Source of the DNA: Chromera velia | Taxonomy: Eukaryota > Sar > Chromeraceae | Direction: 5' to 3' | Length of the DNA stretch: 29,579 nucleotides | Assembly: GCA_018398765.1 (NCBI GenBank) | Contig: JAHBMJ010001388.1 | Coordinates: 2,034-31,612 of the forward strand | In this document: one piece after another, positions 4,189 through 24,931 of the stretch | Layout: every line of letters begins with the position of its first letter | Numbering within the stretch: the first letter of the stretch is position 1 | Notes under the pieces: generated by a model | Told to the model about the DNA's origin: nothing | What the model saw: the letters and a program-made list of their open reading frames with translations, nothing else | The model's database searches: none | Made by a program: the position numbers and the translations under genes

Positions 4189-7100
4189 CTATTTTGGCTT
4201 TCCTGGTGCTCTTTCCCCCCTCCCTTCATTCCATATGTCTGAAAGAGCCTGCAAGCACACAGCCCTCTCGGCATCATGCAAGGGACACTCGGTCAAAACG
4301 TGTACTTCGTCTTCAACCACCTGGATGCCAAGAAGATCAGAGCAAACAATGCATTTTCTGTCGTGCAGCGGGGTCCCCCTCCCTCCATCAAGAGAGAATT
4401 TCCCCTTATTGACCTTAAGGCTCCTCTCTCCCACCCTGAATGCTGCTCTTCTTCTGTGGACTGACCAGGGTGCAACCTTTCTGTAGCACACAAGGGTCCG
4501 CCCGATGCTTTCTCTCTCAATTGAGAGACCGTTTTCTCTGCTTCTTTTATCTGTCTGTTTACTGTGCAGCCACAAGTTTAAGCGGTTTCCGTTTGATATT
4601 ACAGTGTGAATCGGATGTATCAGTGATCTTTCCTGCAGTTCTTTTCTCTCGTTTTCTTTTCTCTTTTGCATTGTGCTCTCTATTCTTTCCATAAAGACTT
4701 TGTTCTTTCTTTTTGCCACCGATTCTCTCTGTAGTGCGCTAACTCATCTTACTATCTGGTCTCTCTGTTCAAATGCCGGCTATCTTCCTGCTGCTTCTGG
4801 CTCTTTCCTGATACAAAAAGGGTTGCTTCGTCTGTATGGAAAAAGAGTTTGAACACATTTCTTCAAATAAGGAAAAAAGTGAAAAGGATATTGTCTTCCC
4901 CCCTTCAAATCACTCTCCACCCCCTCCTGAATTGATTTGGCAAGCGCATGGCCTGTTGGTATATTTCTTGCTTTCTTTAGAACTTTTTGTGCCCACAACA
5001 GCGTTCTCTGAGCTACAACTAAGTCAATGGGGAGCAAGCCTGCCTCCAAAAAGGTTGTGTGTATGCTTTCTTTCTCTCTCAACTGGAAAACCCATCGAAT
5101 AAACCTCCTCTGCAATCGATCGAAGTCTGCCAAAGACTCCTGCAAATGTGAATGCACTTCACAGCCATACAGCCATACGGCACACACTGTCTGTTTGAAC
5201 CAATGGAAGCAAGTGGCTGGGGGAATCTCTCCTGCTGATGTGATCTTACTTTTCAGTACAAAAAAGAGTCTTTCTGCTTTCACTGTTCTTTCTCTCATCA
5301 TTGCATCTACTGAGCAATCTTCTGTCAACAACAAACCAAGATATGGGTATTCCTTTGCCTGTTCTAACTCTTTCCCTCCCAAAATAAAAGATTTCTTTCT
5401 TCCCCTTTCCCTTTCTAACCAGCAGAACTTAACGAACCTTGATTTATCTGACAAAAGAAGTCTGAGGGGCTCTACGTATTCCTCGAGAGCTCTTAGCAAT
5501 CTTTCCATCTCCCTTGCTTCCGTTGACTTCAGGTAGGTATCCTCTGCGAAGAGGCCGATGGGGAAGTCTTCCTCCGACCCGTCTACGTCTTTCTGGAGCT
5601 TTGGCCTCCTCCCTGTCAGCCTTGCTCTCTTCTTAATCTCTTCTGGCATATCGTTAATATATGTAGAAAACAAAGAAGGACCGGCCGGCCCGCCTTGCTT
5701 TGACCCTTTGCTTTCTCTAAACCACCAGTCCGTTCCCCTCACCCTTGCCCTGATGTTCTGGAGAGATGCGGCCACCCACTTGATGGTCTCTTCTAACACT
5801 CCATGCTTAAGTTTCTCAGTTAAACTTCCATCATCCGATGACTTGCTTCATCAAACGTGCTCGTAAAATCAATGAAAGAAATATACAGACACTCAAAACG
5901 TGCAATCGATTGAAGCAAAAGAAAAATAGTATTCAGAGTCCCCACCCCCTTCCTATATGTAAACTGTACTTCATTCTTTTTCCCGCTCCCCTCTTTCTCT
6001 ACCGTATCTCTGATCCCCAGTTCTCCTCACTTTACATCTGCAGAATCCAAGTGAATTAGTCTGTGTCCTTTCTGCACGTTTTACGGTTTTCCTGGCTTCG
6101 GGACAGCAGCAATCACTAGATCATTCCATCCCTCTGGCCACTATACAAAGCAAGCACACACATTCAGCAAGCAGTTGTAGCAGTCAACCACCGACTTTAA
6201 CTTTGCCATGACCCCTAAGACGCCTGGGGGCATTCCGTTTTCCCTGCTGCCTTCTTTAGATTTCCTGTTTTCTTCATCTAGTCTCTTATACTGTCTGTTC
6301 TTATCCTCCATTCTTTTGCCTCTGTGAGAGCCTCAAAAGTCTTGCATAAGCTGGTCACCCTCACTTTTACTACCTTTCCTGACTTTTTGTCTGTAAAGGT
6401 GAGTTGCTCGTCCTCTTCCCGTGTTTCCTCCTCGCTCTTCTTCCATTATTCTGCCCATCCCTTTGCCTTCTCATCCTCTGTCAGTGCATTTTCCTTTCTG
6501 ACCTCTTTTTTTTTGCCTAGCTTGTTCCAGATCTTCTATGCTCCTCCTGGCTCTCTGATCTCTTTCTTTCTCTCTTCAATTCTTTTGTATTTCTGTCTTG
6601 CTGCTTCTTTTCGCATGGTCTTTCTTCTCTCCTTACTTCCTATATGTAGCTCTTTTTTTGCTTCTCTGAATTCATTCTCAGCTTCCTCACTTTTTTTTTT
6701 TTCAAGTTTTTTTCTGCTTTGTCTCACTTTCTCTCCCACTCTCGACTCAGTCTTTTTCACTTCCTTCAGATTTCTTCTTATGATAATCTCTGGGCTGTCT
6801 CCTTCTTTTACTTTTATTCCTCTTCGAAATTTCTTTTCTTTCTTTGCTGCTCATTTGTATTCTCTCTCCACTGTATCGTGCAGCTGTCTGTAGAGCCTGT
6901 CTAAGCTTTCTTTCGTCACTCTTACTCCTTTTGCTACATTTATCATCTTGTCGAATTCCTTTTCTATTCCTTCTTTCTCCAGACTTTCCTGCAAGCTATC
7001 TAAAAACTTCTTTTCCACCCTTTCTGACAGAGGTCCCCACCATCGTTTCTTTATCTGATCCCTTTCTGGGAGCTCTTTTTCCATTTTCTTGACTCTCTCT

Positions 7101-15156: not shown

Positions 15157-16645
15157 ATTCGTGCGCGCGTTGACGTATCTGTGTCTAAGCGTGCGCGCTC
15201 GTAGAGCTGACGGAGTTAAAAAAAAAAAATACTGGAGGAGGTGAATCCACTGGAAGGAGAGAGATTGGCAAGGCTAGAGCAACCCAGCAAAAGAAAGGAA
15301 CGACCACATCGGGGGATAATTTTTGTTTTTCCACAGCAGCACGCGGATAGAAAGAGAGAGAGCGTGTGAGAGAGAAGCCAAACTCCCTTCATTTCTGGAC
15401 CTCACACAGCCACACTCACATATCTTCCTTTCAATTCCACCAATCATGAAACGATCAAACCTGAATCACATGAATCCAGCTTGCACTCGAGAGACATGAC
15501 ATGAACGAATCTCAACTGACGGACCAACCAACCAACCAACCAGGATTTCCAGATCCGAAGGCGCCCATCAGTTTTCCGAGGAGGCCCTTGTCCTTTTCTG
15601 CCTTCTCGTGTTTCTCCTTCAATGCCTGCTGGGCAGCCGCTGAAAGAAGAAAGAAAGGAAGGCAAAGAAGATTCGAGGGCTGCACATTGAGGAGCTTTCG
15701 TTCTCAAGAAAACCACAAAAAATGAGACGCCTCTCCTCCACACCAGACACCGGAGAAGAGAAGGAAAAGACAGAAGAGCAGGCAATCGGCGTGGATGCAA
15801 AGGAGACAAGAGCTTGTCAGCTTGTAGGGGGGTGCGATGTTGATCTTTTTTCTTCTTTTGATGGACCAACTCACGTGTTTGGCTCTTGTCGGGATGATAC
15901 AGCAACGCCATCTTCCTGTACGCCTTCCTCACGTCATCCGTCGACGCCCCATCGTCCAATTCCAGTACCTCGTAAAGGTTCTCTCCGTCAAGTGCCTTCT
16001 TCACTCTGGAGTTCTCGGCAGTCGCCTTCTTCTTGCGGGACCATTCTTCCTGCAGGGGTGTGCATGCATTTACTTTCATACAGAATTCTTTTTCTGTATG
16101 AGAATTAAATTTTCTTCTTGCGGGACCACTCTTCCTGCAGGGGGCAAAAAGGGGCAAAGATCTAAAAACTCCATACTGAGACATCTTCTGGCCAGATGAC
16201 CGTATAAATTCTGAATGCAAAGCTGAGCACCTTTTCTAAGGCATCCCAGCCCCCCAGCCGGGCAAAAAGAAGGAGTACTTCTGAGAAGTTCTCACGGGGG
16301 GAAGGGATGGTGTGGGAGTGGCTGAGGCTACTGAACAAGTCCTTGACATGTCAAAAAGAGAAGTTGTGAGCATGAGAGTCCGATCTGATGTCCCCGGGCG
16401 TCTTCTTTCTGTCCCTTCACCTCCAGGCTAACCTGCTGTTTTCCTCCCTGATCATCATCCTCGTCCTTATCCTTCTCTCTCCTCCCTTTCTTCTCGTCTT
16501 TCTCCTTCTGCTTTTGGATCTCATACGTCTCCTTGAAAGACCTTCCAGCCGCCTCCAGCCGTCTCGTGAAGGTACACAGCTCCGCGAGCACTACAGGCTC
16601 CCCGTTGAAGTCGGGGTCCGGGCACGGGAGGAATAAAAGGGGCAT
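10941..16645 (-). CDS. DNAJC2: Zuotin/DNAJC2 (MPP11)-type J-domain and SANT protein, 11 exons
   Basis: Family role: an Hsp40 co-chaperone of the ribosome-associated complex, also linked to chromatin through its SANT domains. Exons on the minus strand, high to low: 16645-16433, 16049-15875, 15639-15541, 15027-14953, 14478-14273, 13947-13844, 13419-13327, 13108-12379, 12119-11636, 11240-~11178, and a tentative last exon 10984-10941. All junctions are GT-AG and phases agree through residue 746. Residues 1-20 ([20 protein letters not shown]) resemble the short hydrophobic N-terminus of the family. The J-domain starts near residue 96 with [15 protein letters not shown] is at about 123-125. The zuotin homology region (189-321) contains [37 protein letters not shown] and [17 protein letters not shown] Lys/Glu-rich charged region follows (325-400). 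SANT1 is at about 526-575 ([15 protein letters not shown]) and SANT2 at 698-750 ([15 protein letters not shown], then [15 protein letters not shown]). Exon 1 could end later, at a second in-phase donor (GTGAAG). The final exon is weak. Confidence 0.88.
11018..11081. repeat. (CA)n-(GA)n compound microsatellite
   Basis: ACAC-rich tract followed by a GA run at about 11050-11080, lying in or next to the last dnajc2 intron. The same compound, ACACACC followed by (AG)n, recurs at 11418-11455. Confidence 0.9.
11356..11456. repeat. (TC)n-(AC)n-(GA)n compound microsatellite in dnajc2 intron 9
   Basis: TCTC run, ACAC run, short GAGA, then a long GA run. It lies inside the intron between exons 11636-12119 and ~11178-11240. 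Confidence 0.9.
14094..14256. repeat. (CA)n tract with a 55-bp tandem duplication in dnajc2 intron 5
   Basis: A unit starting AGACCCACGCACAGAAGCAC occurs at 14094 and again at 14149. Each copy runs into a CA array, which continues to about 14255. It sits directly downstream (in gene direction) of the exon 5 donor at 14272. Confidence 0.9.
14467..14541 (-). repeat. 33-bp direct duplication spanning the dnajc2 exon 5 acceptor
   Basis: Two identical 33-bp copies (14467-14499 and 14509-14541) are separated by 9 bp. Each copy contains, in gene direction, a TG-rich tail, TGCATGCAG and the first exon bases ACCAGGGCATGA. The copy next to the exon (14467-14499) must be the working one, because splicing at the upstream copy reads into a stop (TGA) within nine codons. 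Confidence 0.9.
15121..15156. repeat. (TCTG)n microsatellite in dnajc2 intron 3
   Basis: About nine copies of CTGT, inside the intron between exons 15639-15541 and 15027-14953. Confidence 0.9.
16059..16111 (-). mobile_element. Miniature palindromic element, copy A, in dnajc2 intron 1
   Basis: 53 bp between two 32-bp direct repeats (16027-16058 and 16112-16143, 31 of 32 identical). In gene direction it contains CATACAGAA, six bases, TTCTGTATG, then AAAGTAAATGCATGC. The left arm (ATTTAATTCTCATACAG) is a near inverted copy of the right arm (CTGTATGAAAGTAAAT). The flanking repeats include CCTGCAG and the exon 2 start GAAGARTGGTCCCGC, so the 3' splice site is duplicated. Using the upstream acceptor gives a stop after nine codons. 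Confidence 0.75.
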
Positions 16646-17452
16646 CGTAGAAAGGAGACACAGAAAACCCAAGATAAGTGACCCGCAAGGCGGTCCCCCA
16701 CAAGTACACGGTTAGCAGAAAGGCAAACGGGTAAGTTGACACAGTCTACGTGAACCTGGCTCTTGTGAATACAAGGGCCGAGAAAGACCTCCAAACCCCT
16801 GGATTGCAATCCAGTGAGCGCTGAGGGCAGATCTGCCCGATTCCCGACCGTTCTCTTGCAAGCAAGGCGACGGCAGCCCGTATTCCGGCAGAAGAACACT
16901 TCAAATCGACAGACCCTCAGCTCGTCGAGGCTTACTCCTAGAACCGAAACTTTTGGTATAGCCAGATCGATTCACGTTGGCGCATCTTACTGTTTCAATC
17001 AAGATCGACTTCAGCTAGCGGTTCGATCCGTCTCCGCAATATATCGCGGCGCCGTCAATTGAGCCCTGCGTCGGCGCGCCGCGCGCCTTGCCGCGGACTT
17101 CTTTTGTGCGCGCCGCCACTTTGCGTTTCGTGCCGCCTCTCGGGGCCGATCGGGGCCGCGCTGCATTACTTTGAATTGAATTGCATGCATGCAGGAGTGA
17201 CGTCTCTTTGCATGTCGATCGATCGCGGTCGATCTTCCAGCACGACTCCATGATCTCAGAACACCTCGAAACTCGGTCGGGAGTCTTCCTTTCACTGTAG
17301 GTGAGGACATCGCAGTGACGCTGTGCCCATTCTTGTACGGTGTCCGTTTCGATCTGAATGAAATTCGAATTGGCTTAGGTTAGCACGTGACTCAACTCTG
17401 TTTGTCGGATCAAAGGTGAGGGACGCTTAATTCTCTCTCTCGTGTGCGCACG
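16646..17452. promoter_or_regulatory. Divergent promoter region between dnajc2 and purM
   Basis: About 800 bp separates the two start codons, which point away from each other, so this stretch must hold both promoters and both 5' UTRs. It is CpG-rich around 17045-17160 (GGCGCGCCGCGCGCC and similar). It holds two perfect palindromes ten bases apart: CTGGATTGCAATCCAG (16799-16814) and GGGCAGATCTGCCC (16825-16838). A GATCGATCGCGGTCGATC stretch lies at about 17217-17234. No clear TATA box is seen, and no gene. Confidence 0.55.
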
Positions 17453-20400
17453 ATGACGGACACTCGATACGCGGACCGTGGCGTCTCTCATCAAAAGGAA
17501 GACGTGCACGCTGCAATTGCGAATCTGGATGTGGGACTGTTCCCGTCAGCATTCTGCAAAGTCGGTCTTCGTTTGGTTGCTCAACTCCTGTCTCGAGCAC
17601 AGGCTGGCCACTCTACCTATCCGATCCTTTTTTGTGTATGCAGGTGGTGCCAGACTTCCTGACGGGGGATCCAGAGAAGTGCATCGTCATGCACGCAGAC
17701 GGAGCAGGTCGGTGGGGGATGTGTCGGTCAGATGTCCCCCCGTCTGGCGCGCCTGTCTGTATCCAGTGGGGCTTTTCTTCACCTCTTGCTCCACATAATT
17801 GCACGATACATCAGGACCCTTTCAGCATTGTTGAAGGGAATCAGGGTCTCCTCGGTTGCTGTTTGCTTTCTAGTTCTCTGTATCCAAAGCATACCTCGAT
17901 GCCGTCTCCTCTTGTTGCTCTGCCCTGCAGATAATCTGCTTGCGTGTGGTATTCTTTTCTCTGCAGATAATCTGCTTGCGTGTGGTATTCATTTTGGGAT
18001 AATCTGCTTGCGTGTGGTATTCTTTTTGGGATAATCTGCTTGCGTGTGGTATTTATTCTTTCTGGCATCCGAACCCTTTCCTGTTCTGCTTGTTCGTATT
18101 TTTTTCATTTGATTCATTCGTTGAACCTTTTAAATCTTTGTTTCTCTGTTTCTTTCTTCGTTTTCTTCGTTCTTTCTTGATTTTTTTTAAAATTTCTGTG
18201 TCCGTCCGTCTGTCCGTCCGTCTGTCTGACTTTCCTTCGATTTCAGGCACGAAGTCTGTAATTGCATGCATGTATTGCAAGGAGACTTCTGTCTGTCTGT
18301 GTGACTTCTTCAATTTCAGGCACGAAGTCTGTAATTGCGTACATGTATTGGAAAGAGACGGGGGACCTCTCGGTGTTCAAGGGGATCTCTATGGTCAGTG
18401 AGGAGCTGCAGAGATTTTGTTTTTTCGCATGCAAATAATCCCTTTCGGAAAGACGCGTGTAAGTGAGCACTCCTTCGGATGCACAGCCCCGATGCATCGA
18501 CTTGGTGACGTCTCGATCGAAGCAGTTGATGGCCATAGGGTAGCTTCGTTGACTGTGTGGCAAATTCTTCTCGTCTCTCCAACTTCCTGTGCTTCCTGGT
18601 TCCCCTCTCCCCCTCCACTGATCTTTCCAGTTCGCACAGAGAAAGCCGACACTCGCACTGCACACTAACAACATAGGCACATTACGATTTTTCTTGAGAG
18701 TACCTGCAGGACGCGATCGTGATGAACACAGACGACCTGATCTGTGTGGGGGCAATCGGGCCGATGCTGCTGTCGAACACGATTGGAAGAAACGCGAAGA
18801 ACATTCCGGGGGAGGTGAGTCTCTCTGTGTGTGCATTTTGTACCTTTTTTTGGCCAGCCGTGCGTTCGTTGTGTTGAAGACAATCATTGAGGCCATGCAT
18901 ACAGAAAAAGAATTCTGTATGAAAGTAAATGCATAAACGGATGATCATGTACAGGTGTTGAAGACAATCATTGAGGCCAACGAGGCGATCTGCGCAAAGC
19001 TAACGTCTTTGGGGACGCCCATCATCACCACGGGGGGGGAGACGGCAGACGTCGGTGAGTGGAGTAAAGTGTTTGAAAGATGAGGGGGGAAGGATTGGAA
19101 AAGAGTGGGAGAAAAAAAGCAAGAAAGAAAGAAAGAAAGAAAGGAGACTCGCTTGGAGAGTTGGCCATGAGAAGGGAAAGCGGAATCTGGTGACAGCAGC
19201 AGCGTTTGTTTCTTCTTCTTGAGGCCACATACTGGTTCATTTTGTCTTCTTGTTCGAGTTTCCTTGCCTTTCCTTATTTTTTCTTTGTGCATTGCTGCCT
19301 CCTCTGGGTTCCTTCCGTTTTCGTGACCTGAAGAGGCTCTGCACCTGTTCTGGGCTCTGCATTTGATTGGCGCCAGTCCACATGTCTCTGTTCGGTCAAT
19401 CGTTCTCTCTCTTTCTCTCTTTCCATTCTGGCAGGTGACCTTGTTCGGACGTTGATTGTTGACAGCACGGTGTTGTGTCTGATGAAGAGGGCAGAGGTGA
19501 TTGCCAACGATCGGATCGCAGCAGGGAACGTGATCGTGGGGCTCTCCTCGACTGGGCAGACGACGTATGAAGAGGCATACAACAGGTGCGTGTGCGTGAC
19601 TCTCTCTTTTTGCCCCCCCCCGCCCCCCCCCACCCTCTGTGTGTGTGTGTGAGTGAGTGTGGATGTGGGTATGTCTGTGAGAGGGGGGACGACTGAGTTA
19701 CTCAGTGTAGCTCTGTCTGTATAGACATGCAACCCAGGGGAAGGGATGCAATTGGTGGGTGGTGGATAATTGTGGAGACAAACGCCGCAGAGAAATGAGT
19801 TGGCCATTTTTGTCGATTTGCTCGCCCCTTTGCCTCTCCAGTTACTTTGGCTTCGGCTTTTCTTTTCCAGTCCGCCAGAAGGGCTTTGTCTGTTTTTTCT
19901 TCTTTTCTACATCTGTGAATTTCTTCTACGAATCACTTAGGACCGTTTTTTGTTTTTCCGTCCTTCTTTTTCTTGACTGGTAACTTTCTCTTCGGCCTGT
20001 TCTGTTGCAGTGGAATCGGAAGCTTTTACTTTTTTTGCATGAAAGAAGTCTGTATGAAAGTAAATGCATGTTCTGTTGCAGTGGCATCGGAAGCAACGGT
20101 CTGACAATGGCCAGGCACGAACTTCTTCACAAAAGCCTCCTCGAAAAGTTTCCAGAAAGTTGCGATCCGAATGTCAGTCAGATGGAGTGAGTGTCAGTGA
20201 GGGCTGCGGTCTGAAATTCCGGGTAATTCTTTTTGGCGCCTTCTTGCTGCCTCCCTCCCACTCTTCTCTCCTTCCTCTCGAACTCCCTCCTTCCCCTCCT
20301 TCCTGCCTGCCCGCTTCCTTTCTCTTCTCTTCTGTCCTCCTTGCCTTCATGGCCATCGCTCTGTTTCCCTCTGATTCTTTCATGTGTTGGGCGGTGGCCT

Positions 20401-21442: not shown

Positions 21443-21473
<31 letters not shown>

Positions 21474-22789
21474 CGGGGGGGTGCGTCCGCGTGCAAATGC
21501 TGGTTCGGGTGTGGCTGCTTGCTTTTGCTATTCTGTGCGATCTATCGGTCGCTTCTTTTGGCTGCTCTGACTCTTTACATCCTGGTGTCTTTTCCCTCTT
21601 TCTCTTTTCCCTTGCGTATGCGTGTGAGTGAGTCCCCTCAGGTTCGGATCATCAGTCCGATACAGGAAAAACAACCTGTTTCCATGCCCGCCTCTTTTCA
21701 AGGTCAGCCAACCTGTCTACACTTTCATTCAAGGGGGGCAAATGGGTGTGCAAACCTGCCAAAGCAGAATGTTGACCTGCGTGTGCCTGATTTTTTCTTG
21801 TGTCTGTTCAATTCCTGAAAGCTATATGTTTCCTGTGACGTTTTGGACCTCAATGGGGTCACTGTCTGTCTGTCTGTCTGTCTGTCTGTGTGTCTACCTA
21901 CCCAGTTCCTTGGCGGCTTGGCTGTTCCCTCCCTTCACTCCTCTACCCCCTCCCTCCCTCCCTCTCTGGCTTCACGGCGTTGTGTTGTGTTGTGTTGCAG
22001 GCCATTCAAAAGGCGTGCTCCTCATCCTGGAAGGAAATGTATCAGGTCTTCAACATGGGTCATCGCCTCGAGGTTTGTCGGTCGGGGTGGGGTGAGGGGT
22101 GGAATGCATGAAGCTGGATGTTCGACTGCATTCAATTTATTCAGTTCTGAGTGAGTGTGTGAGTGTGTGTGTGCGCGCGCGCGTGCGTGCGTGTGCGTGT
22201 ATGTCTACGCGTTCATGTGTCTTGCTCTTTCATGCCTGGAGTGCGCCCACATTGATTCATGCCCTGATTCACGACGCAGATCTACGGCCCTCCCGAGCTA
22301 GTTGCTGTGCTGAGCGCGATCTGTCAAAAGTACAAACTCGACTGTCAACAAGTGGGCGTCGTCGAGAAGAGCGATTCGACTTCTGGTCAGTAGTTTCCTT
22401 CATAGATTCCTGTGTCTCTTGCCGTGTCTGTCTGCCTGTCAGCCTTTTGTTGAAGTTCGTCAGGCTCATTGAGTCGGAGTGTCCTGTCTACTGCTTCGGT
22501 CGGTCGGTCGGCCTCTCAGCCACGAGTTTTTGCCCTTCCAACAAGTAGAAAGGAGGTGTGTTTTCGTATGCTTGAGCTCTCTCTCTCTCTCCCTCGCTCT
22601 CTCTCTGTGTGCGCGCGCGTGTGCAAGCAGAGGAACCCTGCCTGTATTTGCACGACTTTCCTTTTCCCGTCCGTACACAAATGGACGAATCAATAAATGA
22701 ATGAATGAATGAATGAATGAATGAATGCAGGAAAGAACCAGGTGATCGTGCAGGGTGAATTCGGGGAGTTTTCCTATGAGGGACCCTGA
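17453..22789 (+). CDS. purM: Phosphoribosylformylglycinamidine cyclo-ligase (AIR synthase), 395 aa, 13 exons
   Basis: Closes formylglycinamidine ribonucleotide to aminoimidazole ribonucleotide with ATP, step five of de novo purine synthesis; probably cytosolic, as no targeting peptide is visible. Exons: 17453-17560, 17644-17707, 18320-18393, 18710-18814, 18955-19054, 19435-19585, 20082-20172, 20551-20605, 20909-21050, 21642-21702, 22001-22072, 22280-22385, 22731-22789. All introns are GT-AG and phases join to 1188 nt without a stop. Motifs: [13 protein letters not shown] (54-66, nucleotide/metal-binding DGxGTK), [11 protein letters not shown] (87-97), [14 protein letters not shown] (142-155), [15 protein letters not shown] (about 185-199), [14 protein letters not shown] (201-214), [12 protein letters not shown] (about 259-270), [12 protein letters not shown] (283-294), [14 protein letters not shown] (about 334-346) and [12 protein letters not shown] at the C-terminus. 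Intact and full length. Length and the early [19 protein letters not shown] and [15 protein letters not shown] motifs recall the longer Bacteroidetes-type enzyme rather than E. coli PurM or the domain in animal GART; that comparison is from memory. Confidence 0.92.
17931..18055 (+). repeat. Four tandem ~32-bp units in purM intron 2
   Basis: The unit ATAATCTGCTTGCGTGTGGT followed by ATTC and T-rich sequence starts at 17931, 17967, 17999 and 18031, with periods of 36, 32 and 32. The first two units are preceded by CTGCAG, so they resemble 3' splice sites. No downstream coding exon fits there. Confidence 0.93.
18219..18365 (+). repeat. 73-bp tandem duplication of intron tail and exon start at purM exon 3
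   Basis: The sequence TTCRATTTCAG followed by GCACGAAGTCTGTAATTGC and about 20 further bases occurs twice, with putative exon starts at 18247 and 18320 (period 73). Only the second copy encodes the conserved [12 protein letters not shown] segment. The first copy encodes a decayed version (CMYCKETSV), and splicing to it shifts the frame because 73 is not a multiple of three. Confidence 0.9.
18896..18954 (+). mobile_element. Miniature palindromic element, copy B, in purM intron 4
   Basis: 59 bp between two identical 25-bp repeats (18871-18895 and 18955-18979) that begin GTGTTGAAGACAATC and coincide with the start of exon 5. The element opens with TGCATACAG, contains GAATTCTGTATG and AAAGTAAATGCAT, and ends GATCATGTACAG. 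The working acceptor AG is therefore inside the element's end; the upstream repeat has no AG in front of it. Confidence 0.75.
20024..20068 (+). mobile_element. Miniature palindromic element, copy C, in purM intron 6
   Basis: 45 bp between two 26-bp repeats (19998-20023 and 20069-20094, 25 of 26 identical). The repeats carry TGTTCTGTTGCAG plus the exon 7 start TGGMATCGGAAGC. The element starts TTTTACTTT and ends CTGTATGAAAGTAAATGCA, so the outer parts (TTTACTTT and AAAGTAAA) are inverted copies of each other. The upstream acceptor would shift the frame (period 71). Confidence 0.75.
20447..20550 (+). repeat. (GCGT)n-(GT)n array ending at the purM exon 8 acceptor
   Basis: GCGT repeats, GAGT repeats, then a long GT run that passes directly into TTTGTGCAG and exon 8 at 20551. 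The usual polypyrimidine tract is replaced by GT dinucleotides. Confidence 0.9.
21444..21481 (+). repeat. 30-base G run in purM intron 9
   Basis: Thirty consecutive G followed by C and seven more G. The run is on the coding strand, so the pre-mRNA would carry it too. The exact length may be affected by sequencing error. Confidence 0.85.
22696..22728 (+). repeat. (AATG)n array directly at the purM exon 13 acceptor
   Basis: About eight AATG units run straight into CAG at 22728-22730, leaving no pyrimidine tract before exon 13. Confidence 0.92.
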
Positions 22790-24931
22790 GGGGGGGAGGG
22801 CCTTTTAGAGCTTAGCATTTCATGTATGAAGAATTGATTGGAGAAGAGGGGAAGGGGAGGAGGGTTCTACAGTAGAGAGAGAGTACCAGGTTGAGGGGAA
22901 GGTGGGAGAGGAAGAAGGGTTGGAAGGAAGGTTGGGGTGTGATTATCCACAGGCAGAGAAGAAAGAGAGATTTCATTAATATGCGAGCGAGAGCCCGCGC
23001 TTAAACCAATAATAGTCCACTGACTGGCTTCCCTTAGTCGTCTTCTTTCTGTCTTTTTGATATTCTGTCCTGTCTCTTTCCGAAATCGGTTAACCTTTTC
23101 TGGTCGGCATGATATGAATGTACAGGGGTTCTGTGTATTCTTTCCTCTTCCTCCCTGCTTCCCCTCCTCCCCTTGCAAGGCTTTTGCTGTTCGACTAGAC
23201 CCAGCCCTTCGATTCTCGTTTGTACGTGAGAAAGAGAGCTGAAGCATTCAACGGAAGCAAAGTTGAAATGGACTGACTAGACACTCTCTCTGTGCCTCCA
23301 GAGGGACAATAGAGAAGCAAAGCTGAAAGAAAATGGACTGAAAAGACACTCTGTGCCTCCAGAGGGACAATAATAACATGTTCCCCTGTGATTATCTGTT
23401 TGTCTTTGTCTCTCTTCGTGTGTCCAACAACCTATCTGTCTCTCTGGCTGGCTGGCTGGCTGGCTGGTTGTCTTTCCTTGCGTCCATTTGCATCTCCTTC
23501 AAGCCATGCAGCCGGACGGATCTCTTGAAAGGGACAGGCAAGCTTTCGCTTGGCTCTGTATGACATCCGGCAGCATTTGCATCGGACGAAGCGGGAGACG
23601 CATTCAACCCCTCACTCAGCGTGAGAACGGCTGTCGAAGGGGCAGGTTGAAGATCTGAGAGTCGGACAGGAGCAGATAGAAGAGATGTTGAGGAAAGGAA
23701 TAAAAAAGACATGCAGGAAAAAAGGGGGCTGTCTGTGTTGACAAATTCCGTCGTTGAGATGAATTAAACATTGAAAAACAAATGTTGATTGTCTCTGCCA
23801 GTCTACAGGGGGACCGTGAGGTTTCCCTTTTTACCCCTTCTGTCCTTCTTAATATTTATTTGTGCTCTGTCTTCATTGTGCTTGACCGATTACCTCGCTG
23901 TGTCTGCGTCTGACTGAGAGGAATTGTCCTTCGAAGGAAAGCAAGTTGCAGCTGCGCAATTCGGCAGCAGCCGAAGAGAGGAGGGCAGAGAAGAAGAATG
24001 CAAGGCAGTCGAATTCTAAAAGGCATACAAAGGGATGACACGGTGAAGACTAGGGTGAAGACTGTGAGACACGTTTTCAGAGATCTGCAGAAGCTACGAA
24101 AAAAAGAAACCACGAAAGGAAGCCTGGTCGTCACATCCTTTCTGAGTCAATCGAGAGAAAAGTGCCGACTGCTCGATGTCTCTTCGTTTGCTGGCCGAGA
24201 TGATCGGAGCTGCCTTCCGAATGAATCTTCAAATTGAAGAGAGAGAGAGAGAGAAATGCGGGCGTACAGTCTGGAGAAACCTACCTTGTCATACAACGAT
24301 GAATTCAGGAAAAGGCCGATTCTGTCAAGACAAGATGGTGTGAGCCCAGGAGAATCGATATCGAGGGTCCGCAAGAGACGAAAGCAACATAAAGCAGACA
24401 AATCACAACCAATGCCCTGCATGCAGACAAAGACTGTGCATGCCCGCATTGTGTTATGCTTTGAAACACACAGTATTCAGACATCAAGAATAATAAATAA
24501 TCAAAGTTTATCATCAACTAGATCATCATTCATTCATCATGCAATTATTGATCCGCGCGGATCTTGTTGAGCTTCGATCTGCATCATAATAATCATATTA
24601 AGGTACTAAACAGACCTAGTATCTACACCAAGATGTTATTTTAGCTCTAGTGATAATGTTTAGAGAAATAATAAAATTTAGTTTAGAACTGGGTTTAGAA
24701 GATAATTTTACCTTATTTTGGTCACGCCTTCGGCAAGCTAAATAGTTTCAAATAAAGCCGTGTTTTTTGGTGTTATCACGCATTTTGACTTGAAGTAACT
24801 TAGAGTTTTGCTACACCTACGGTACGGCGTTTTATGATTAAGTTTATTAGCGTCGGCTATAATGTAGCTGAGGTTCCACAGCGTCCGAAAGCGTCCGAAA
24901 TTTGCATGCATGCCCGAGGCCTTTTTTTTTT
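22790..24931. other. Non-coding stretch downstream of purM
   Basis: I see no supportable gene. The first part should hold the purM 3' UTR. It contains a tandem duplication (23254-23372), a (GGCT)n array at about 23445-23466 and a GA run at 24238-24254. From about 24470 the composition becomes clearly AT-rich, with many ATCATCATTCATTC-like motifs. A few 60-100 codon open frames occur on both strands, but they show no motif and no exon-like splice borders. Confidence 0.5.
23254..23372 (+). repeat. Imperfect tandem duplication, ~59-bp unit
   Basis: Copies at 23254-23311 and 23314-23372 begin GAAGCAAAG and end with the shared 23-bp block that closes GAGGGACAATA. They differ by small indels and substitutions. 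Confidence 0.88.

Follow-up and report, generated by a model that had tools for sequence, protein, structure and literature searches.

Short inverted insertions between long host duplications at exon edges of Chromera velia and their possible origin by templated extension of staggered break ends

How a short inverted sequence comes to lie at exon edges between long duplications of host DNA is the question raised by a stretch of 29,579 nucleotides of the Chromera velia genome (contig JAHBMJ010001388.1), termed the window, in which three such inserts are placed at intron acceptor ends of a DnaJ-domain gene (minus strand) and a PurM gene (plus strand). The inserts belong to a family seen as a roughly 65-letter inverted repeat between duplications mostly of 20-55 bp, with insertions on the order of a thousand in the genome. 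The answer favoured here, tentatively and at a little below an even chance, is that these genome-wide insertions form when a break with a wide stagger has its 3' ends lengthened on a single short template, in the manner of reverse transcription, and joined, a reading drawn from the arrangement of the sequences themselves.

The coordinates that the first-pass annotation of the window assigned to the three copies are exact, and the flanking direct repeats of 32, 25 and 26 bp with 1, 0 and 1 mismatches are confirmed to the base (Table 1), the first bases of paired copies being 85, 84 and 71 bp apart for inserts 1, 2 and 3. Insert 1 occupies the acceptor end of its intron on the minus strand with a DnaJ domain in the same open frame (Pfam PF00226, E 2e-11), and inserts 2 and 3 occupy the acceptor ends of two PurM introns on the plus strand. 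A homology search with a PurM query of 116 residues joined from the exons matches 786 proteins at E <= 0.001, several of them named phosphoribosylformylglycinamidine cyclo-ligase, with up to 70% identity over the joined exons in the best homologues, which cover 97-99% of the query joined at the exon-side acceptor of insert 3. The exon upstream of insert 2 matches PF00586 at E 0.006, under Pfam's own cut-off. In insert 2 the 21 nt that separate the arm from the second copy contain the acceptor TGTACAG, and no AG directly precedes the first copy. Either the original duplication may therefore have measured 46 bp, or only the exon start may have served to make the first copy. In the window GAATTCTGTATG occurs eight times at up to 2 mismatches (shuffled mean 2.4) and at 0 or 1 mismatch only in the three inserts, and direct repeats as strong as those of the inserts (score at least 23.5) surround 3 of 400 random window points.

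The genome searched comprises 177,833,721 bases in 4,040 contigs, window included. The sequence CTGTATGAAAGTAAATGCA is found at 1,711 sites at up to 2 mismatches compared with 0 for the reversed control, the 24-mer TGCATTTACTTTCATACAGAATTC at 1,524 sites at up to 3 mismatches (control 0), TTTCATACAGAATTC at 1,925 arm sites at up to 1 mismatch (reversed control 6) and the longer CATACAGAATTCTTTTTCAGGGAGC at 125 sites at up to 3 mismatches (control 0), which supports a real, high-copy miniature inverted insertion. These totals count arms and not insertions, as one insertion may have several arms and some arms lie in tandem arrays. Insert 1 is one of three C1386 sites among the CTGTATGAAAGTAAATGCA matches listed. 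The exact arm has 0 matches in viral_contigs and genome_contigs, collections that possibly omit records of or near this genome.

Two samples of loci were read. The first (L001-L131) consists of exact-match places among the matches listed for CTGTATGAAAGTAAATGCA and TGCATTTACTTTCATACAGAATTC plus one place with 1 mismatch; after removal of 20 overlapping loci, 111 loci and the window were retained, with 134 arm clusters. A flanking direct repeat with a score of at least 15 is present at 122 of these clusters compared with 31 of 600 control points. Nine clusters have scores under 12, two of them truncated at the end of the stretch and several with repeats that by eye are weak or degraded. The second sample (L132-L161), picked with a different probe, the inner arm, has a repeat score of at least 13 at 29 of 30 loci, where control points reach 12 in 65 of 600. 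All 34 exact extended-arm sites listed (L107, L132-L157) were read in the search for a master gene, and each of the 26 loci L132-L157 has a flanking repeat scoring at least 13, with 36 for L107. Four extended-arm sites with 1 mismatch were also read, and L161 is without a clear duplication.

The host duplications, described as unusually long from the window alone, have a median length of 38 bp with deciles of 24-52 bp and a range of 17-71 bp (n=129, both samples), and the insert length deciles are 45-95 bp (127 inserts). Identity of the paired copies extends from about 89% at the lowest decile to 100%, so the insertions probably differ in age. A library artefact was rejected in view of the differences between paired copies, which reach about 11% at the lowest decile. 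A nick motif is almost absent at the duplications. The unit of the insert is an arm of 37-45 nt, (TGCATG)CRTTTACTTTCATACAGAATTCTTTTTCAGGGAGCGC(TC), or (TGCATG)C[A/G]TTTACTTTCATACAGAATTCTTTTTCAGGGAGCGC(TC) with its variant position, which starts at or near the duplication edge and runs inward from one or both edges; two full arms joined would amount to about 70-74 bp. Arms are present at both edges in 73 of 100 first-sample and 20 of 29 second-sample inserts, and the remaining 27 and 9 have one arm only with the duplication kept, as in L139, which reads duplication, 36-nt arm, duplication.

In the anatomy set of 100 first-sample inserts with 25-130 bp between repeats, arm tiling places pieces in both directions in 72, and the forward piece precedes the reverse piece in 69 of these; the other 28 have pieces in a single direction, so arm order is informative for 72 only. 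At least two same-direction pieces occur in 32 of the 100, some being a split match or a tandem copy, and head-to-tail arms are clear in L132 and L133. The inner arm ends scatter, with 10 of 160 stopping at the last base of GGGAGCGCTC (the GCGCTC end). Joins between two arms contain filler in 65 of 80 cases, overlap in 14 and are blunt in one. No middle common to separate loci was found among the 129 inserts gathered, from which those above 130 bp were excluded, and of 1,205 distinct 12-mers outside the arms 24 recur elsewhere and look like arm fragments joined anew or like simple sequence, under a generous arm mask (up to 3 mismatches in 12). With no common middle found, the copies look assembled on the spot rather than moved as units. 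The ancestral 48-bp palindrome proposed earlier forms only part of a longer arm and is not copied whole, the middles differing between the inserts read.

The relation to genes was examined by running Pfam on 70 reading frames near the sites, some of them chosen for lying no more than 120 bp from a duplication. Frames were selected with a codon-based posterior, which was put to no other use because it had too little power on short stretches, and a self-trained coding model was dropped after it drifted to purine-rich sequence. Junctions were located by eye, with offsets then calculated, and Pfam or PurM homology identifies the adjacent exon at 23 sites. The duplication lies at a splice junction in 22 of these, spanning it in 21 and exactly abutting it in one. 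The anchored junctions comprise 16 acceptors and 6 donors, so the association with exon edges that leaves one splice site in place stands, while its restriction to acceptors falls. A fixed sense orientation is not supported either, as the element is near-palindromic and the better arm, tallied by eye at homology-anchored sites with one better arm including those of the window, is sense-right in nine cases and sense-left in three. The offset of the junction inside the duplication is spread over 0-48 nt, and the recurring feature is therefore the spanning and not any fixed offset. Pfam matches without an adjoining duplication are those of L004, L012, L054 and a further EGF of L005.

In a splice motif test on the first sample, 54 of 98 duplications have a donor or acceptor in place, compared with 26.9±4.5 (highest 39) in 200 control sets drawn from other parts of the same loci and matched in segment length; donors alone number 26 against 7.2±2.5 and acceptors 36 against 21.4±4.2. 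By eye, the intron-side copy is interrupted by an in-frame stop in L014 and by indels in L052, while in both the exon-adjacent copy reads through, which fits a present intron that takes in the insert plus the other copy. In a separate case, L128 (C3926:3900-5000), a multi-arm insert lies between light-harvesting-protein exon matches at C3926 3642-3722 and 5507-5728, and by eye the duplication seems to span a donor.

The favoured mechanism would begin with a nick in each strand, the two being separated by 20-55 nt, so that the site opens, perhaps where linker DNA meets an exon edge. A single short template would then be copied onto one 3' end or onto both; it would be RNA used by a reverse transcriptase or else single-stranded DNA, would have the termini GAGCGCUCCCUG... 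and ...GUAAAUGCA, and would sometimes be re-copied head to tail. The extended ends would be joined, mostly with filler, and gap filling would produce the duplication. Where the duplication spans a junction, the complete exon edge would stay by its exon and the other copy would be left with the insert in the intron, so that the gene survives. Variable long duplications, one-armed inserts, inward arms, head-to-tail re-copying and private middles all fit templated 3'-end extension with end joining, and the stops at the GGGAGCGCTC end resemble run-off at the end of a template. It is a conjecture that the exon-edge preference comes from cuts in accessible linker DNA at exon ends together with the loss of wholly exonic insertions. 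A bolder form of the proposal is possible, though it tends towards the unlikely: a dedicated telomerase-like or retron-like activity would cap the 3' ends of staggered breaks with a copy of a small RNA, preferentially at exon edges, forming a templated end-capping system that is neither transposon nor introner, has acted at the order of a thousand places and is tolerated through duplication of the splice site.

Several points weigh against extension on a template, or narrow it. Neither a template gene nor a reverse transcriptase or nuclease for it was identified. The samples are skewed to well-preserved copies, and the group of ends at GGGAGCGCTC is partly a selection effect, the second sample having been chosen for long arms. 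Part of the frames searched were picked near duplications, so that 22 of 23 is no measure of the share among all copies. The motif test gives 8 of 29 in the second sample, about background and without enrichment, and flags only 10 of 20 anchored sites; for these reasons the exon-edge bias is supported for the first sample and the anchored genes. Finally, both arms of an insert tend to match in variant outside CATACAG, with 6.93 of 8 nt compared with 6.67±0.05 on shuffling (70 inserts, highest of 2,000 shuffles 6.94) and 6.88 compared with 6.16±0.18 (17 inserts, highest shuffle 6.71). A pre-made palindromic donor would give such matched arms too, and they favour either a transposon or a hairpin-RNA intermediate.

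The first of these, rather unlikely but the main alternative, is a cut-and-paste miniature inverted-repeat transposable element (MITE), a palindrome of about 70-74 bp moved by some transposase with a 20-55-nt stagger, the unstable palindrome centres being later deleted or scrambled. MITEs and foldback-like DNA transposons resemble the family in being short, with inverted ends, no coding capacity and high copy number, and the host duplication and the matched variants within an insert are accounted for. These transposons have near-fixed short duplications and inherited bodies, whereas the duplication in Chromera varies over 17-71 bp and is retained in one-armed inserts, and no common middle was found among the 129 inserts; the classic MITE of the first-pass annotation leaves the duplications and the private middles unexplained. 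No long two-ended element and no autonomous transposase-bearing relative is present among the copies read. A candidate for a long autonomous element, a pair of arms 694 bp apart on C1427, was rejected, since it consists of two independent insertions that are each flanked by a duplication. The inserts may also be an excision footprint of a larger transposon, but no such transposon was seen among the copies read.

Matched variants, one-armed copies and variable duplications would also follow from a hairpin-RNA short interspersed element (SINE). Here a single nick would prime reverse transcription of the hairpin transcribed from an inverted copy, one-armed inserts would be 5'-truncated products that lack the far arm, and the middle would arise from template jumps within the hairpin. 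The target duplication of variable length is a likeness to SINEs and other target-primed retroposons; one fixed end with the other variably truncated may be represented by the one-armed inserts, but most inserts have two arms. This explanation is nevertheless improbable: it predicts some inheritance of middles from parent to daughter, which is not seen in the sample, and Rfam on window 15900-20300 gives nothing near a gathering score, only three matches at E 2-6 that lie far below.

An introner, an element that makes or carries introns with splice sites taken from the duplication, shares with the family the short genic repeats, inverted ends, host duplications and link to splice sites (PMC9860276; for Amoebophrya PMC7789003). 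The exon-edge association agrees with it, the arm contains the acceptor-like TTTACTTTCATACAG, and by eye the outer TGCA followed by G gives TGCAG in L062 and in the second site of L005. The passages of these reports on target sites give duplications of 3-5 nt for Amoebophrya introner elements (PMC7789003) and 3-9 bp for the families characterised earlier (PMC9860276), compared with the tens of base pairs here, and describe introners as being themselves introns, whereas the Chromera insert seems to be placed within a pre-existing intron. Chromera is not mentioned in the main text of PMC9860276. No anchored case was found to create an intron, the exon-nearest copy keeping the splice site of a seemingly existing one, and the introner-like origin suggested earlier is very unlikely. 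Least probable of all, and hardly credible, is ordinary break repair that copies nearby sequence to give tandem exon-edge duplications with filler and involves no mobile element, since an armless exon-edge tandem duplication (about window 18238-18340, by eye) and filler at most joins would suit it but the TTTCATACAGAATTC arm has 1,925 sites against 6 in the control and lies in 141 of 176 separated direct-repeat pairs (243 kb), although these loci were mostly fetched by the arm. Taken as a whole, the first-pass interpretation is partly supported.

For extension on a template, the closest printed parallel found appears to be telomerase acting at breaks, as presented in passages of PMC2246262. 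These insertions resemble the Chromera family in that a short RNA-templated piece is added at broken ends before joining and the site may lose, gain or duplicate sequence. Interstitial telomere repeats are reported there at 130 rodent and 25 primate loci, with duplications at 6 of 130 and 4 of 25, and 14 mouse loci hold pieces of one RNA in opposite orientation (PMC2246262). In the Chromera family, by contrast, most sampled sites have long duplications, the inverted arms are for the most part symmetric, there is an exon-edge bias, the arm is of non-telomeric appearance and the insertions are of the order of a thousand. By eye the arm has no run resembling TTAGGG, a repeat that need not be the telomere repeat of this host. 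In twin priming, as modelled by Ostertag and Kazazian and outlined in PMC2246262, one RNA serves as template for both 3' ends of a break, which yields inverted pieces; in the present proposal extension from either side would begin at one and the same template end, with a product limited to about 45 nt per side. No published description of the family was found in the titles and abstract openings of the open-licence papers listed by the searches.

Change of introns and splice sites is a long-standing question, and the contrast between duplications of 20-55 letters and the 3-9 letters of published introners is a hint that genes can take in sequence by a route not yet described and stay intact. 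The family offers a natural experiment on a large scale: a splice junction is present twice, on either side of a known insert, and the choice of the copy used and the decay of the other can be read directly from it. If the arms are indeed copied from RNA at breaks, this would be a high-copy, sequence-specific templated break repair in a photosynthetic relative of apicomplexans.

Table 1. Window copies with their duplications, and splice junctions anchored by homology
Feature	Position or locus	Strand	Junction	Adjacent exon or host	Remarks
Duplication copy, intron-side (upstream in transcription sense)	16112..16143	-		DnaJ-domain gene	31/32 identity to 16027-16058
Insert 1, 53 bp	16059..16111	-			sense-right arm intact, other arm partial
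Duplication copy, exon-side	16027..16058	-	acceptor, 9 nt from sense 5' end		CCCCTGCAG|GAAGAATGG...
Upstream copy of first 25 nt of PurM exon	18871..18895	+			25/25 identity; no AG directly before
Insert 2, 59 bp	18896..18954	+			arms plus 21 nt ending in acceptor TGTACAG
Exon-side copy, PurM exon start	18955..18979	+	abuts first base (0 nt)		PurM homology
Upstream duplication copy	19998..20023	+			25/26 identity; TGTTCTGTTGCAG|TGGAATCGGAAGC
Insert 3, 45 bp	20024..20068	+			sense-right arm intact, left arm degenerate
Exon-side copy	20069..20094	+	acceptor, 13 nt from start		TTGCAG|TGGCATCGG; PurM query joins exons here
Anchored site	window's three sites		acceptor	DnaJ-domain gene, PurM, PurM	
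Anchored site	L006		acceptor	WDR3 propeller	below Pfam's own cut-off
Anchored site	L016		acceptor	CDK-like exon	junction by eye; kinase match on upstream frame
Anchored site	L052		acceptor	Fe-SOD	preceding exon ends at profile position 61, this exon starts at 63
Anchored site	L062		acceptor	cytochrome b5	match further along same frame; junction 1 nt inside duplication
Anchored site	L064		acceptor	pantoate ligase	
Anchored site	L073		acceptor	Ras	
Anchored site	L079		acceptor	Sec62	below Pfam's own cut-off
Anchored site	L080		acceptor	methyltransferase	below Pfam's own cut-off
Anchored site	L083		acceptor	proteasome	below Pfam's own cut-off
Anchored site	L090		acceptor	tRNA synthetase	below Pfam's own cut-off
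Anchored site	L092		acceptor	kinase	
Anchored site	L109		acceptor	tyrosinase	
Anchored site	L139		acceptor	TPR	below Pfam's own cut-off
Anchored site	L005		donor	EGF	
Anchored site	L014		donor	CSN8/eIF3K	below Pfam's own cut-off
Anchored site	L026		donor	FAD-binding	
Anchored site	L086		donor	kinesin	
Anchored site	L114		donor	PEPC	
Anchored site	L157		donor	PEP-utilising enzyme	
Anchored site	L113:494-647		none, inside exon	DRY_EERY	below Pfam's own cut-off; frame open through insert, 102 bp

Further observations concern the sampled loci, the genome and the window. In L110, L124, L127, L130 and L131 the duplication and insert lie in tandem arrays, L131 having 14 arm matches of which the first four are about 60 bp apart, and in L157 a second arm just outside the duplication suggests two successive insertions at one site. 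Direct repeats also surround inserts without an arm, with 24 bp around a 37-bp insert at window 23288-23372 and 40 bp around a 47-bp insert at L007:472-598, possibly representing other families of a similar kind. The genome contains introns, 58 light-harvesting-protein matches, with the control Synechococcus matching too, and 11 alveolin-domain matches, which are weak evidence because the control Caulobacter matches too. On the minus strand of the window, 4780-5847 is an open frame that by eye resembles a reverse transcriptase of the non-long-terminal-repeat type. At approximately window 18238-18340 a PurM intron end and exon start are by eye duplicated in tandem (TTTCAG|GCACGAAGTCTG), about 75 bp apart with no arm between. 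The intronic segment 17930-18060 contains four tandem copies of GATAATCTGCTTGCGTGTGGTATT, and a long G run occupies 21444-21480.

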